Shown here piece by piece: positions 4,394 through 40,139 of a stretch of DNA of 64,000 nt. The stretch's first letter is position 1. Each line of letters begins with the position of its first letter. Source of the DNA: Desulfomarina profundi (GTDB lineage: Bacteria > Desulfobacterota > Desulfobulbia > Desulfobulbales > Desulfocapsaceae); NCBI RefSeq assembly GCF_019703855.1, contig NZ_AP024086.1, positions 2,314,501 to 2,378,500 on the forward strand, in the 5' to 3' direction. Made by a program: the position numbers and the translations under genes. Below the pieces are notes generated by a model, which ran no database searches, was not told the origin of the DNA, and saw only the letters and a program-made list of their open reading frames with translations.

Positions 4394-5210
4394 AACAGAC
4401 ATTCTTCATCTGGATAATGCTTTGTGTCACTGTATCCAGCGCCTTTGCCGGATATTGTGTCAATGCAAAAAGAGGTGTGAAGAGTAGTGCAATGATCAGG
4501 AACTATCTCCAGGATCTTGCAGATAATTCATCCGGTTTTGCTGTAACAGGTGTTGCAGGAGGAGGAAAAAACAGCAAAACCACTGATGGCAAAGAAATAG
4601 CTGCTCTCCTGATAGGCAGAGAAGCTTCCTGGGACAACGGAAATAAACCGACAGTCATTATTACCGGAGCAATCCACGGAAACGAGTGGGCAACACCGGA
4701 GGTGTGTTTAGGTATCGCCGAGTACCTGCTGCTCAATAAGGATAACGATGCTCCCGCAGAGGATGACAAAGGTGCCTTGATAAATGAAGGTTCAGCAGAC
4801 GTTGATAAAAATGGCACTGGAGAGGTTATCCTGCCACACATAACTACAGTTAAAAAACTCCTCGAGACCATACAGGTGATCATCATTCCCGTACTGAACC
4901 CGGACGGTTATGATTACAGTCAGACCGAGAATGGTAAGATGTCTTATTTTGGTTCGGGATGGCGACCAAATCGCAGTAAGTTAAGCAGCAGGGAGACTGG
5001 AGAAACCTGTTTCAGACAGAATGGTACTGCATACCAGGCACCGCCAGAAGATGCCGAGCACTGTTTTCTTGCAGACTATGATGATACTGCGGAAGGTGGT
5101 GATATCGAAGAAGAGCAGCTGGTTGTCTGTGAAAATATAGAAAAAACCAGTGTCAGTCTTTTTCAGCCATCTCTTCAAGTCGCCTCCGGGGAGATGGTTG
5201 ATGCTATCTA

Positions 5211-6848
5211 TAGAGTATCCTCAAAAAGTCATCTGTTTGGCACAAGGATCGTACTCCAGCGCATAACCTGAAATACAAAAACGGATAATGCTTCGGCCAG
5301 CAAGTTGGCAAATAGGTCTTGTTGGACCTTTTTTGATACACCTGTTAGCAGAGCACAGCAAAACCTGAGCAGAACCATCAGGTTCATCACCAGGAAAATG
5401 CTATTAATCCATGCTTCTGATGTTTTCAGTGTTCTGGCACGGATATAGTTGAGCCGATAGCCATTTTTACCTTGGCCAAACTTGCCCTCTATCGGAATTC
5501 GATCAAGGGCATCTTGTCTTCGTTGCAGTTTCTCCTGCTTGAGTTGCTCTGCATTCCCTGCTGTTTGTCTCTTGGGACGACCAAGAGGTTTACCGCCAAA
5601 CCGGATATTGTTTTGCTTCATGTATTTCCGATTAGCTCTGGTGCCATAGATGCCATCGGCAAGAACAACTTCCGGGAAACACCCATATCGCCTTTTGTAC
5701 GCTTCAATCTGCGTGATCAAGTCAGTACTTTCATTAAAGGCATCCCATCCGAAATGGTCGACCAGGGCAATACCATCAACCATGCTGACACTCAGTTTCG
5801 AGCCGAACTCTACCTTATGGCTTGCTTTGCCGCGAACAATAGGACGAACATGCGGCTGAGAAATACTAACGATGCGGTCATCACAACGTCGTTTCTTCTC
5901 TTTGTACATCCTGTACTGCTGTCCATACAAATGGTGGATGATCCAATACTGCCGCTGCCGGTTATGGTGCAGCGGGAAGGACCTGCCACCGATCATGTCG
6001 AGCAGCATCTCTATATGTCGAAAGTTTCTGCGCAAATACTGCAACTGCTCCCTGGTAGCTTTCCGGCGCAGCTTGCCGCCTGGATTTCGTTTCTTTGAAA
6101 TTGCCAGGTATCGTTTTCGTGCCTGTTGACGGTATGTTCTCGGTTTCTTGGTCAAAGAGCTGATAGCGTAAAGCTCATCTATCAGTTGTTCAGATATCTC
6201 TCTTGCCTCATTCAGCAGACTGATGTCTGTGGGATAACGAATGGCCTGCTCAGCAACAGTCGCATCAACCACCATTTTGCCATGGTTCTCAGGATCATCA
6301 GAGCCTGGTAATTTCGATGTTTTCCGGTGCCTTTTTTTCTCAATACTGCTGAGAATGGTCTCTTCAAAAGATAAAAAAACTTTTCTGCCCATCCTTTTTC
6401 GGATCTCGACAAACAAACTTGCGGTGAAGGGAGGTTCGTCCTTGTATGAGGACAAACCTACAAAATATTGCAGATACGGATTCTCCTGGATCTGCAACAC
6501 TGTTTCCTCATCACTCAAGTTCAGCTTGTGCTTTATAATCACTGCTCCAATCACAAGACGGGCGTCCTTGCCAGGACGTCCTTGAGTAGAGCTCATGCTC
6601 TTGTAATAGCCGGATGCGAGTTCATCCCAGGGAATCGCAAGGCTCCATTTGACCCAGCGATTTTCAGGATTAAGTTTGCCGCCAAAGGGAAGGCTGAAAC
6701 CTTCCAAGCCCAGTTGCCGCGTGCTTTTGTATCGAATCATGTGCAAGCCTTTTAGTGTAGTTTACCGCATAAGCTTACACATTATACCATTATTTCACCA
6801 CATTTAGTTCATAATAACAACGTGTTGAGACTTTTTAAGGGCAATCTA
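5211..6848 (-). mobile_element. insertion sequence copy 1 (IS5/IS1182-like), 1,638 bp
   Basis: The ends were found by comparison with the second copy at 10481-12118, which matches it to the same last base on both sides. Terminal inverted repeats of about 20 bp are imperfect (16 of 20): TAGAGTATCCTCAAAAAGTC at one end and TAGATTGCCCTTAAAAAGTC at the other. TCTA flanks both sides and completes the broken M14 reading frame, so it is the target duplication. One transposase gene fills the element. Confidence 0.93.
5229..6740 (-). CDS. IS5/IS1182-like transposase, copy 1
   Basis: A 503-residue DDE transposase from the ATG at 6740. The N-terminal region resembles the DUF772 domain (DEETVLQIQENPYLQYFVGL, then FVEIRKRMG). 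The DDE part includes VVDATVAEQAIRYPTD, VVLADGIYGTRANRKY and, near the C-terminus, a run typical of these enzymes (PIEGKFGQGKNGYRL). An in-frame TTG 6 nt upstream gives 505 residues but is less likely. The protein is identical along its full length to the copy at 10589-12100, so both copies are probably active or very recently moved. Family placement is by motif; IS5 versus IS1182 was not resolved. Confidence 0.93.
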   Translation of the reverse strand: MIRYKSTRQLGLEGFSLPFGGKLNPENRWVKWSLAIPWDELASGYYKSMSSTQGRPGKDARLVIGAVIIKHKLNLSDEETVLQIQENPYLQYFVGLSSYKDEPPFTASLFVEIRKRMGRKVFLSFEETILSSIEKKRHRKTSKLPGSDDPENHGKMVVDATVAEQAIRYPTDISLLNEAREISEQLIDELYAISSLTKKPRTYRQQARKRYLAISKKRNPGGKLRRKATREQLQYLRRNFRHIEMLLDMIGGRSFPLHHNRQRQYWIIHHLYGQQYRMYKEKKRRCDDRIVSISQPHVRPIVRGKASHKVEFGSKLSVSMVDGIALVDHFGWDAFNESTDLITQIEAYKRRYGCFPEVVLADGIYGTRANRKYMKQNNIRFGGKPLGRPKRQTAGNAEQLKQEKLQRRQDALDRIPIEGKFGQGKNGYRLNYIRARTLKTSEAWINSIFLVMNLMVLLRFCCALLTGVSKKVQQDLFANLLAEALSVFVFQVMRWSTILVPNR

Positions 6849-7602
6849 TCTACAATGCATCCAATCCGAAACGGGTTTTTTGCAGCTCAGGCAAAAGGCG
6901 GGTCTGGAAAGATGAGTGGTCAACAGATGATGGTGATACCATTGCACTTTCAAAGGCCAGGTCAGAGGGTTATCTGCAGGATGCTTTTGGTGTCGATATC
7001 AATAGAAATTTTCAGTATAAATGGGATGTTTTCCGAGACCAGAAACACCTGTTCATCAGAAGCCGGTCACCATCTTCGAGAATTTACCGAGGTTCAGGAA
7101 AACTGTCTGAAAAAGAAACAGGAGCAATGGAACAACTGGTTTCTCAGAAAAATGTGGTGGCTCTTATCGATTACCACTCCGGTTCGACTCAGGTCCTTTA
7201 CCCTTATGCCTATTCAACCAAGGTGCGAGTAGCTGAAAATATTCTTGGTGGCTCGAATGATTATGCTGTTTTCCGACAGGTTTCTGAAAAAATTGCTTCT
7301 CTATTGAATCGACATGACAGGGGAGATGAAACAATTGTCAATTATACGGCCGCTCAAAATTACAATGATACCAGCGTGGGAAGTGGAGTAGCCCGGGATT
7401 GCTACTACCAGACCGAAGGCATTGCAGCAATTAATATTGAAGTTCATGACAAACAGTTTACCTATAATGCCGCGGATTTTATCAAAGTTGTCCCGAAAAT
7501 TTGTAAGATAAATGTGCCGGGTGCAATATGGTTTCTTTTCTGGGCAGCTGAGCTTCCCCCCGTCAGGAATACCTGGAAATAATGGCCCTCCTGCAAAAAA
7601 GA

Positions 7603-38214: not shown

Positions 38215-38685
38215 ATGAAAAGAATAGGTACAATTCACACCCCTTTTACTGTTTTACAGGATATGCCAATTCAGCCTAAAGGGGCAAAAGAAGTAATCGG
38301 CACAATTGACTTGGAAGAGCGCTACCGGGAAGGATTGGACGACCTGGAAGGATTCAGTCATATCTATCTTCTCTATGAATTTCACATGGCAAAACGAACC
38401 GCCTTGAAGGTTACTCCTTTCATGGATAAGACTGAAAGGGGTGTTTTTGCTACACGATCACCTCTTCGCCCGAATCATATTGGTCTCTCCATTGTCAGGT
38501 TAATAAAAATTGAGGGTCGGACTTTGACAATCCAGGGAATAGATGTCCTCGACGGGACACCTCTACTTGATATAAAACCTTATATCGCACCCTTCGACGA
38601 AGTGAAAGAGAGTACTTCCGGATGGATGAAGGCTTCGGCGGAAGAAGTTTCAAGGAAAAGATCCGATGATCGATTTGTAGGTTGA
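38215..38685 (+). CDS. trmO: tRNA (N6-threonylcarbamoyladenosine37-N6)-methyltransferase
   Basis: 156 residues. TrmO methylates t6A37 in tRNA-Thr using SAM; the older name is TsaA/YaeB. Family motifs: IGTIHTPF, PIQPKGAKEVIGTI, GFSHIYLLYEFH, then GVFATRSPLRPNHIGLS (SAM site; the usual form is RSPxRPNPIG) and IDVLDGTPLLDIKPYI. The length matches the short bacterial form without the C-terminal extension. Note that Pro in RPNPIG is His here (RPNHIG), seen also in many archaeal and bacterial members. Confidence 0.93.
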   Translation: MKRIGTIHTPFTVLQDMPIQPKGAKEVIGTIDLEERYREGLDDLEGFSHIYLLYEFHMAKRTALKVTPFMDKTERGVFATRSPLRPNHIGLSIVRLIKIEGRTLTIQGIDVLDGTPLLDIKPYIAPFDEVKESTSGWMKASAEEVSRKRSDDRFVG

Positions 38686-38801: not shown

Positions 38802-38975
38802 ATGAGCGAAGAAAAACGTACCCCATGTCCAACCTGCCAGGGGAAAAAAATCATTGAAGGTGTCTGTGAAACAAGCTCAGAGTGGAGCGGAACACAGGAC
38901 GAACAAGGGGATGAAATGCAGTGTACCCCCGATCAGGTATGTCCGACCTGCAACGGAAAAGGATACGAGGAGTAA
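38802..38975 (+). CDS. small DnaJ-type CxxCxGxG zinc-binding protein
   Basis: A 57-residue gene, missed by any 60-codon cut-off. It has a good ribosome-binding site (AAAGGAG, 8 nt from the ATG). Two half motifs are present: PCPTCQGKKIIEG near the start and VCPTCNGKGYEE at the end, that is CxxCxG twice, as in one DnaJ zinc site. It is flanked by trmO and the selenoprotein gene on the same strand, 97 bp before the latter. It presumably binds one zinc; the role is unknown, perhaps a chaperone- or redox-related adaptor. Confidence 0.8.
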   Translation: MSEEKRTPCPTCQGKKIIEGVCETSSEWSGTQDEQGDEMQCTPDQVCPTCNGKGYEE

Positions 38976-39072
38976 AAAGTAACGGCCCACGTCCGGGGCA
39001 CCCGAAGGCGTTTTAACCCGCAGCCGGGTCAATGGTGCCCCGCCATGTTTGTTTCTTTAAGGAGGATGGACC

Positions 39073-39687
39073 ATGGCACAGAAGACATTGGAAATTTTCT
39101 CCGACTATATCTGACCCTGGTGCTACTTCATTACCGGGAGTATTGAACGCTTACGACAAGAATACGAAATCACCATCCGCTGGCGTGCCTTTCCCCTCCA
39201 TCCGGAAACTCCCGAAGAGGGACAGCTTCTGACAGACCTTTTCCGCGTCACCTCAGAAAAAATTGGTATCATGGTCGGTAACCTGAAAAATATTGCCGAT
39301 GAACTGAATCTTCCATTCGGGGAAAGAGACAAGACCTGCAACAGTCGACTGGCACAGGAACTTGGTCTCTGGGCAGATAGCATGGGAAAAGGGGAAGAAT
39401 TTCATTCCCTCGCTTTCAGGGCTTATTTCGGAGATGGTGTTAATCTCGCCCACATTCCCATCCTACTGCAACTCGCTGAAAATGCAGGACTCCCAAAAAA
39501 TGAGGCCGAAAAAGTCCTGAACATGCGTTCCTTTAAAGAAGTCGTTGACAGGGATTGGGCAGAATCGAGATGTAAAGGTGTTGCCGCCATACCAACCTTC
39601 GTTTTAGATGATTACAAAATGGTTGGGGCCCAAAGCTATGAAGCCCTTGCCCGAATGCTCAGGGAGAACGGAGTAAAAACAAGATGA
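39073..39687 (+). CDS. DsbA/FrnE-family selenoprotein (UGA read as selenocysteine)
   Basis: Reading from the ATG at 39073 (AAGGAGG upstream), codon 14 is TGA (39112-39114), after which the same frame continues to 39687. If the TGA is selenocysteine the protein has 204 residues with the active site SDYI-U-PWCYF. In ordinary FrnE/DsbA-like oxidoreductases the matching site is SDYICPWC, so Sec replaces the first Cys of CxxC. The cis-Pro loop is seen as AAIPTFVLDD. The rest matches 2-hydroxychromene isomerase/FrnE length and helices. A stem-loop fitting a bacterial SECIS follows the TGA at once. The protein lacks a signal peptide, so it is cytoplasmic. The macro-domain gene starts on its stop codon (ATGA). 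Confidence 0.9.
39112..39138 (+). promoter_or_regulatory. predicted bacterial SECIS stem-loop
   Basis: Immediately 3' of the TGA, CCC-T-GGT (39115-39121) pairs with ACC-GGG (39133-39138): two 3-bp helices with a single bulged T at 39118, and an 11-nt loop beginning with G (GCTACTTCATT). Bacterial SECIS elements recognised by SelB sit just after the UGA, often with a bulged U and a G at the start of the apical loop. The structure was drawn by eye. Confidence 0.72.
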
Positions 39688-40139
39688 AAACAATGAAAGG
39701 GGATCTTCTCCAACTGGCAGTTGATGGCCATTTCGATGTTATTGTCCACGGTTGCAACTGTTTCTGCCGTATGGGGGCAGGGATTGCCAGATCAATAAAA
39801 ACCGTGTTTCCAGAAGCGTTCCAGGCTGATCTGGCCACGAAGGAAGGTGACGAGAAAAAGCTTGGTTCGTTCAGCTCAGCAACTGTCAGGCAGAACGGTC
39901 ATACAATCACAGTTGTAAACGGCTATACCCAGTATAACTCTTTTGGAGAAGGTGTTCTTGTTGATTACAAGGCCGTCAGAAAACTGTTCTCCCGCCTGAA
40001 AAAAGAGTATGGAGGAAAGCGTATCGGCTACCCAAAAATAGGTGCCGGTCTGGCCGGCGGGAATTGGAAGAAGATCAGCGCAATCATTGATGAGGAACTC
40101 CAAGGAGAAGATCACACCCTGGTTATTTTTGGTCCATGA
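39684..40139 (+). CDS. macro-domain (ADP-ribose-binding) protein
   Basis: 151 residues. Motifs of the Appr-1-p-processing macro fold: VIVHGCNCFCRMGAGIARSI (the ligand-binding N and G run), NGYTQYNSFGEG and RIGYPKIGAGLAGGNWKKI. These proteins bind ADP-ribose and some hydrolyse ADP-ribose-1''-phosphate or O-acetyl-ADP-ribose; the short length suggests the stand-alone YmdB/Poa1-like type. The ATG overlaps the stop of the selenoprotein gene (ATGA), so translation is coupled and the two may share a stress-related role. That link is inference. Confidence 0.92.
   Translation: MKTMKGDLLQLAVDGHFDVIVHGCNCFCRMGAGIARSIKTVFPEAFQADLATKEGDEKKLGSFSSATVRQNGHTITVVNGYTQYNSFGEGVLVDYKAVRKLFSRLKKEYGGKRIGYPKIGAGLAGGNWKKISAIIDEELQGEDHTLVIFGP

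Follow-up and report, generated by a model that had tools for sequence, protein, structure and literature searches.

The locus considered here raises the question of whether a TGA codon lying inside a conserved reading frame ends translation or specifies selenocysteine and, in the latter case, which element of the mRNA directs its decoding. The window, by which we mean the whole 64,000-nucleotide stretch of Desulfomarina profundi DNA that was analyzed, is part of a single 4.3-Mb contig, and the window features given with coordinates below lie on its forward (+) strand. An ATG at 39073, preceded at a distance of 7 nt by a Shine-Dalgarno-like AGGAGG (39060-39065), opens a frame that includes the TGA at 39112-39114 and terminates at a TGA stop at 39685-39687. 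Read through, this frame (39073-39687) would encode a thiol-disulfide oxidoreductase of the FrnE/DsbA type, 204 amino acids long and beginning MAQKTLEIFSDYI-U-PWCYF..., with selenocysteine (Sec) at residue 14 in a UPWC motif. The internal TGA occupies the position of the first Cys in the CPWC motif of FrnE/DsbA proteins. Under translation table 11, with a minimum length of 80 amino acids, the sole open reading frame at the locus starts at 39271 and spans 138 amino acids; standard annotation thus truncates or misses the gene.

Homology extends in this one frame across both sides of the TGA. The Pfam DSBA domain (PF01323) matches residues 5-196 (E 1.2e-31) and D. radiodurans FrnE matches residues 6-196 (E 1.2e-15); no NCBIfam model scored above cut-off against the protein. 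The best PDB matches of its AlphaFold model (mean pLDDT 96.8) are to D. radiodurans FrnE (DR_0659; PDB 5coh, 5cnw, 5xwh), with Z 26.4-27.5 over 202-203 residues; the shared fold is full-length and, at Z 27.5, has an rmsd of 1.9 over 202 residues at 25% identity. SCO1869 follows at Z 25.5, and then, near Z 20, come 2-hydroxychromene-2-carboxylate (HCCA) isomerase, GST kappa, and DsbM, which share the superfamily fold but score below FrnE in structure and match more weakly or not at all in sequence. The hallmarks of the FrnE subfamily are accordingly present: a DsbA fold with a helical insertion and FrnE as top match, a CP(W/F)C-type motif at the start of helix 1, here UPWC at residues 14-17 with Sec in place of the first Cys, and a cis-Pro position of the thioredoxin fold at Pro174 (39592-39594, in AIPTF), invariant in alignment A1 and assigned its role by homology to DsbA-fold proteins. 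The resolving Cys17 (TGC, 39121-39123) is retained by 96 of 97 aligned homologues, the other having a gap, and the remaining two Cys of the protein are not conserved. The features that the preliminary description had read from the DNA, namely the in-frame TGA at the first CxxC cysteine, same-frame homology on both flanks, and a gene that ordinary calling would truncate, miss, or start at 39271, all stand, and its assignment to the FrnE/DsbA family with a UxxC active site is upheld by the FrnE match together with the machinery and the codon pattern described next.

A homologue is present in 76 of 291 related genomes. When the DNA itself is read, TGA falls exactly at residue 14 in all 42 close homologues and in 18 more distant ones, a recurrence at one residue that is far beyond chance. 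Another 37 homologues, mostly more distant, carry TGC or TGT at this position; these are the Cys-containing forms aligning through position 14 that had been proposed as a check. Of the 36 close members that have Ile just before the UGA (39109-39111), 35 encode it as ATC, a bias that may reflect constraint on the 5′ base context as well. Judged from sequence, the frame at 39073-39687 is a genuine selenoprotein gene and one more member of the known DsbA-like UxxC family.

The D. profundi genome encodes selA, selB (over cut-off), a tRNA-Sec above the gathering score with anticodon TCA/UCA, and two selD genes (G000:C1:581421-582347 and 3598297-3599223). Each selD has one in-frame TGA, so the two gene products are probably selenoproteins as well. 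The selenoprotein reading had been made contingent on selA, selB, and selC, with a search for these and selD proposed, and all four were found. Among related genomes the picture is complicated by selA, for which four near-complete assemblies (G011, G019, G028, G049) gave no match despite selB, tRNA-Sec, and a TGA-containing selD; SepSecS was likewise not found in these four. In the single-contig genomes G011, G019, and G049 (loci L130-L132), however, a run of 5,000-7,500 Ns lies exactly at the place that selA holds beside the same conserved neighbors in G000 and G042. Because this run covers the conserved selA position, the absence of selA in those three genomes is very probably an artefact. 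Absence calls in genomes near such N stretches need care. Several draft genomes of the same genus also have the TGA-containing gene and no selA match, a lack that incompleteness and masking would probably explain. In two Desulfosediminicola genomes, 40 and 43 selenoproteins have been counted, the largest bacterial selenoproteomes known as of 2025 (PMC12013277).

The mRNA element that would recruit this machinery is best sought in the alignment of Sec forms. Across 49 distinct Sec sequences, a set picked after looking at the sequences and omitting the UPFCW group described below, whose register differs, RNAalifold picks a hairpin in which, counted from the UGA, columns 14-20 pair with columns 26-32. 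This corresponds to 39128-39146, a candidate bacterial SECIS composed of UCA-U-UAC, the loop CGGGA (39135-39139), and GUA-U-UGA. The stem consists of 3 bp, a U-U mismatch, and 3-4 bp, with six pairs conserved in the 49 sequences, and most close members gain a U-A pair at 39127-39147; another Sec group has G-C or G-U in place of the mismatch. The helix is 98.6% paired in the 49 sequences, as opposed to 15-52% when slid, and four of its six pairs show double compensatory changes. It decays in close Cys relatives, where pairing is 57%, against 98% among members of the close Sec clade. Synonymous sites tell the same story: at the conserved codons among residues 18-25, 90% of close-clade members share one synonymous codon, compared with 50% in the rest of the gene (p 4.5e-5), a figure that rises to 98% for codons such as TTC, ATT, ACC, and GGG within this stretch. 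The published bSECIS model prescribes a spacing of 16-37 nt, an upper stem of 4-16 bp, and a minimum free energy of at most -7.5 kcal/mol (PMC13188914). With its loop starting 20 nt after the UGA, the hairpin at 39128-39146 conforms in loop, spacing, and upper stem, but its energy of only -4.6 to -4.9 kcal/mol falls short of the rule, so its role as SECIS rests on conservation rather than energy. An Rfam search returned no SECIS match.

The preliminary description had placed the SECIS directly after the TGA, in a stem-loop formed by CCTGGTG and TACCGGG. This structure exists: the hairpin at 39116-39138, whose start lies 1 nt past the UGA, has the lowest energy of the local folds, at -8.6 to -9.4 kcal/mol, and it competes with 39128-39146. 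That it is the working SECIS of an otherwise identical selenoprotein, or that the two hairpins alternate, is nonetheless unlikely in our estimation, although it is the more stable fold of the two and has 90% of its cells paired across the 49 sequences. Its loop lies just ~7-10 nt from the UGA, outside the 16-37 nt range; 7-8 of the 42 close members lack pairs 5-21 and 6-20, breaks that occur in UPYC members; its covariation score is 0.123 versus 0.218 for 39128-39146; and its pairing is partly a consequence of the conserved Pro-Trp-Cys codons. Its stability does not exceed that of shuffled sequences (z -0.45 to -1.23), and folding energy by itself (z near 0 to -1.23) is unable to single out a SECIS here. 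The early stem-loop thus survives as a fold, and the conserved, covarying element is the one at 39128-39146.

Were the TGA instead a true stop, the locus would be a pseudogene, or a 13-amino-acid frame with translation restarting at 39271 to yield a second protein. Ordinary gene calling, which yields the 39271 frame only, speaks for this, but the evolutionary record makes it very improbable. About 60 genomes keep a TGA at this one residue, and coding constraint extends over residues 15-66, upstream of 39271. Purifying selection goes on past the TGA: of the seven pairs with estimable dS, six give a downstream dN/dS of 0.09-0.19 and the seventh, a close pair, gives 0.34, with an eighth pair (L018-L020) left out of these estimates because its synonymous sites are saturated. 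A product restarted at 39271 would, moreover, have neither the active-site motif nor the initial strands of the fold. Two other accounts have next to no probability: a sequencing or assembly error for TGC or TGT, to which the Cys codons of other homologues lend some color, is in effect refuted by the identical TGA in some 60 independent assemblies and by the loss of the hairpin in Cys homologues, and genome-wide reassignment of TGA (e.g., to Trp) or its suppression without a SECIS, for which no support was found, is at odds with the TGA at 39685-39687 that terminates this very gene, with the presence of selB and tRNA-Sec, and with homologues that have Cys rather than Trp.

We therefore assign a probability of about 95% to the reading of the locus as an FrnE-type Sec enzyme of the DsbA superfamily whose UGA is decoded via the hairpin at 39128-39146, with Sec insertion itself being what we infer. 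SelB and Sec-tRNA(UCA) would decode the UGA at 39112, recruited by this hairpin, which is itself also coding. In UxxC redox proteins, Sec attacks and Cys resolves. Here the selenolate of Sec14, ionized at neutral pH, would attack a substrate disulfide or become oxidized, and Cys17 would resolve the mixed selenenylsulfide, with disulfide exchange proceeding through U14-P-W-C17 in a substrate groove lined by Pro174. The enzyme is probably cytosolic, because its active site, at residue 14, comes too early in the chain for a signal peptide to precede it, a trait shared with D. radiodurans FrnE. FrnE is described as a cytoplasmic disulfide reductase/isomerase that carries a CP(W/F)C site and can reduce insulin, and its mutant shows sensitivity to both cadmium and diamide (PMC8945050). 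The D. profundi protein differs from it in having Sec where FrnE has Cys, and in the extra C-terminal CX4C of FrnE, of which its sequence contains none. Many FrnE proteins have this motif but some do without (PMC8945050), and it is not required for membership; its absence implies that recharging must differ, and thioredoxin-like systems of the cell may serve as electron donor. In an anaerobic cell, the enzyme would most likely reduce or isomerize disulfides or repair thiols, both the direction of the reaction and the substrates being conjectural.

DsbA-like UxxC selenoproteins (PF01323; COG2761) were first reported in 2005 from the Sargasso Sea metagenome, where nine sequences were assigned to COG2761 (PMC1088965); they were counted in genomes in 2006 (PMC1794560), and a 2026 table lists "DsbA-like protein form 1" (PF01323, UxxC) (PMC13188914). 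The present gene shares with form 1 the Pfam domain, the UxxC redox motif, a bacterial SECIS downstream of the UGA, and widespread Cys homologues. The clade to which it belongs, of Desulfocapsaceae type with a few relatives, differs in having a SECIS sequence and gene neighborhood of its own, a comparison in which the Sargasso sequences enter by their description. No sequence description of this clade was found in the text of the publications consulted on DsbA-like selenoproteins, to which it adds a well-supported branch whose SECIS is backed by covariation and synonymous-site constraint. The earlier view that FrnE/DsbA-like selenoproteins are reported but rare is right in its first half only; they have been in selenoprotein lists since 2005 and are common in this bacterial family. 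A second FrnE-like Sec group, marked by UPFCWLAEPA (L072, L074, L076, L078-L082, L084, L087), has a different hairpin, GGCUGGC-GGA-GCCGGCC, with 7 bp and a GGA loop that lies 17 nt beyond the UGA.

The gene neighborhood is conserved: enolase, trmO, a small CxxC protein, the selenoprotein gene, and a macro-domain gene are repeatedly found close together in relatives. In the window, trmO (tRNA m6t6A methyltransferase) lies at 38215-38685, the small protein, 57 amino acids with two CxxC motifs and no match in a Pfam search, at 38802-38975, and the macro-domain gene (PF01661, with a DarG-like match below cut-off) at 39684-40139. These accompany the selenoprotein gene in 13, 17, and 14 loci, respectively, and enolase in 7; the window itself and one duplicate record are among these counts, which the shortness of some loci limits. 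The start codon of the macro-domain gene and the stop codon of the selenoprotein gene share an ATGA (39684-39687), and the two genes are likely co-translated. We give little credence to the tentative idea that this neighborhood is an operon by which anaerobic Desulfocapsaceae carry out dedicated selenium-dependent stress repair, with the Sec FrnE and the ADP-ribose-binding protein acting together.

On a quick tree, the distribution of Sec and Cys forms requires at least seven changes, three of which well-supported branches make unavoidable, and one Cys clade with support is nested among Sec forms. Both forms occur together in single genomes, namely G027 (L053/L060), G041 (L054/L065), and G048 (L052/L062), and these pairs provide a natural comparison for the value of Sec over Cys.
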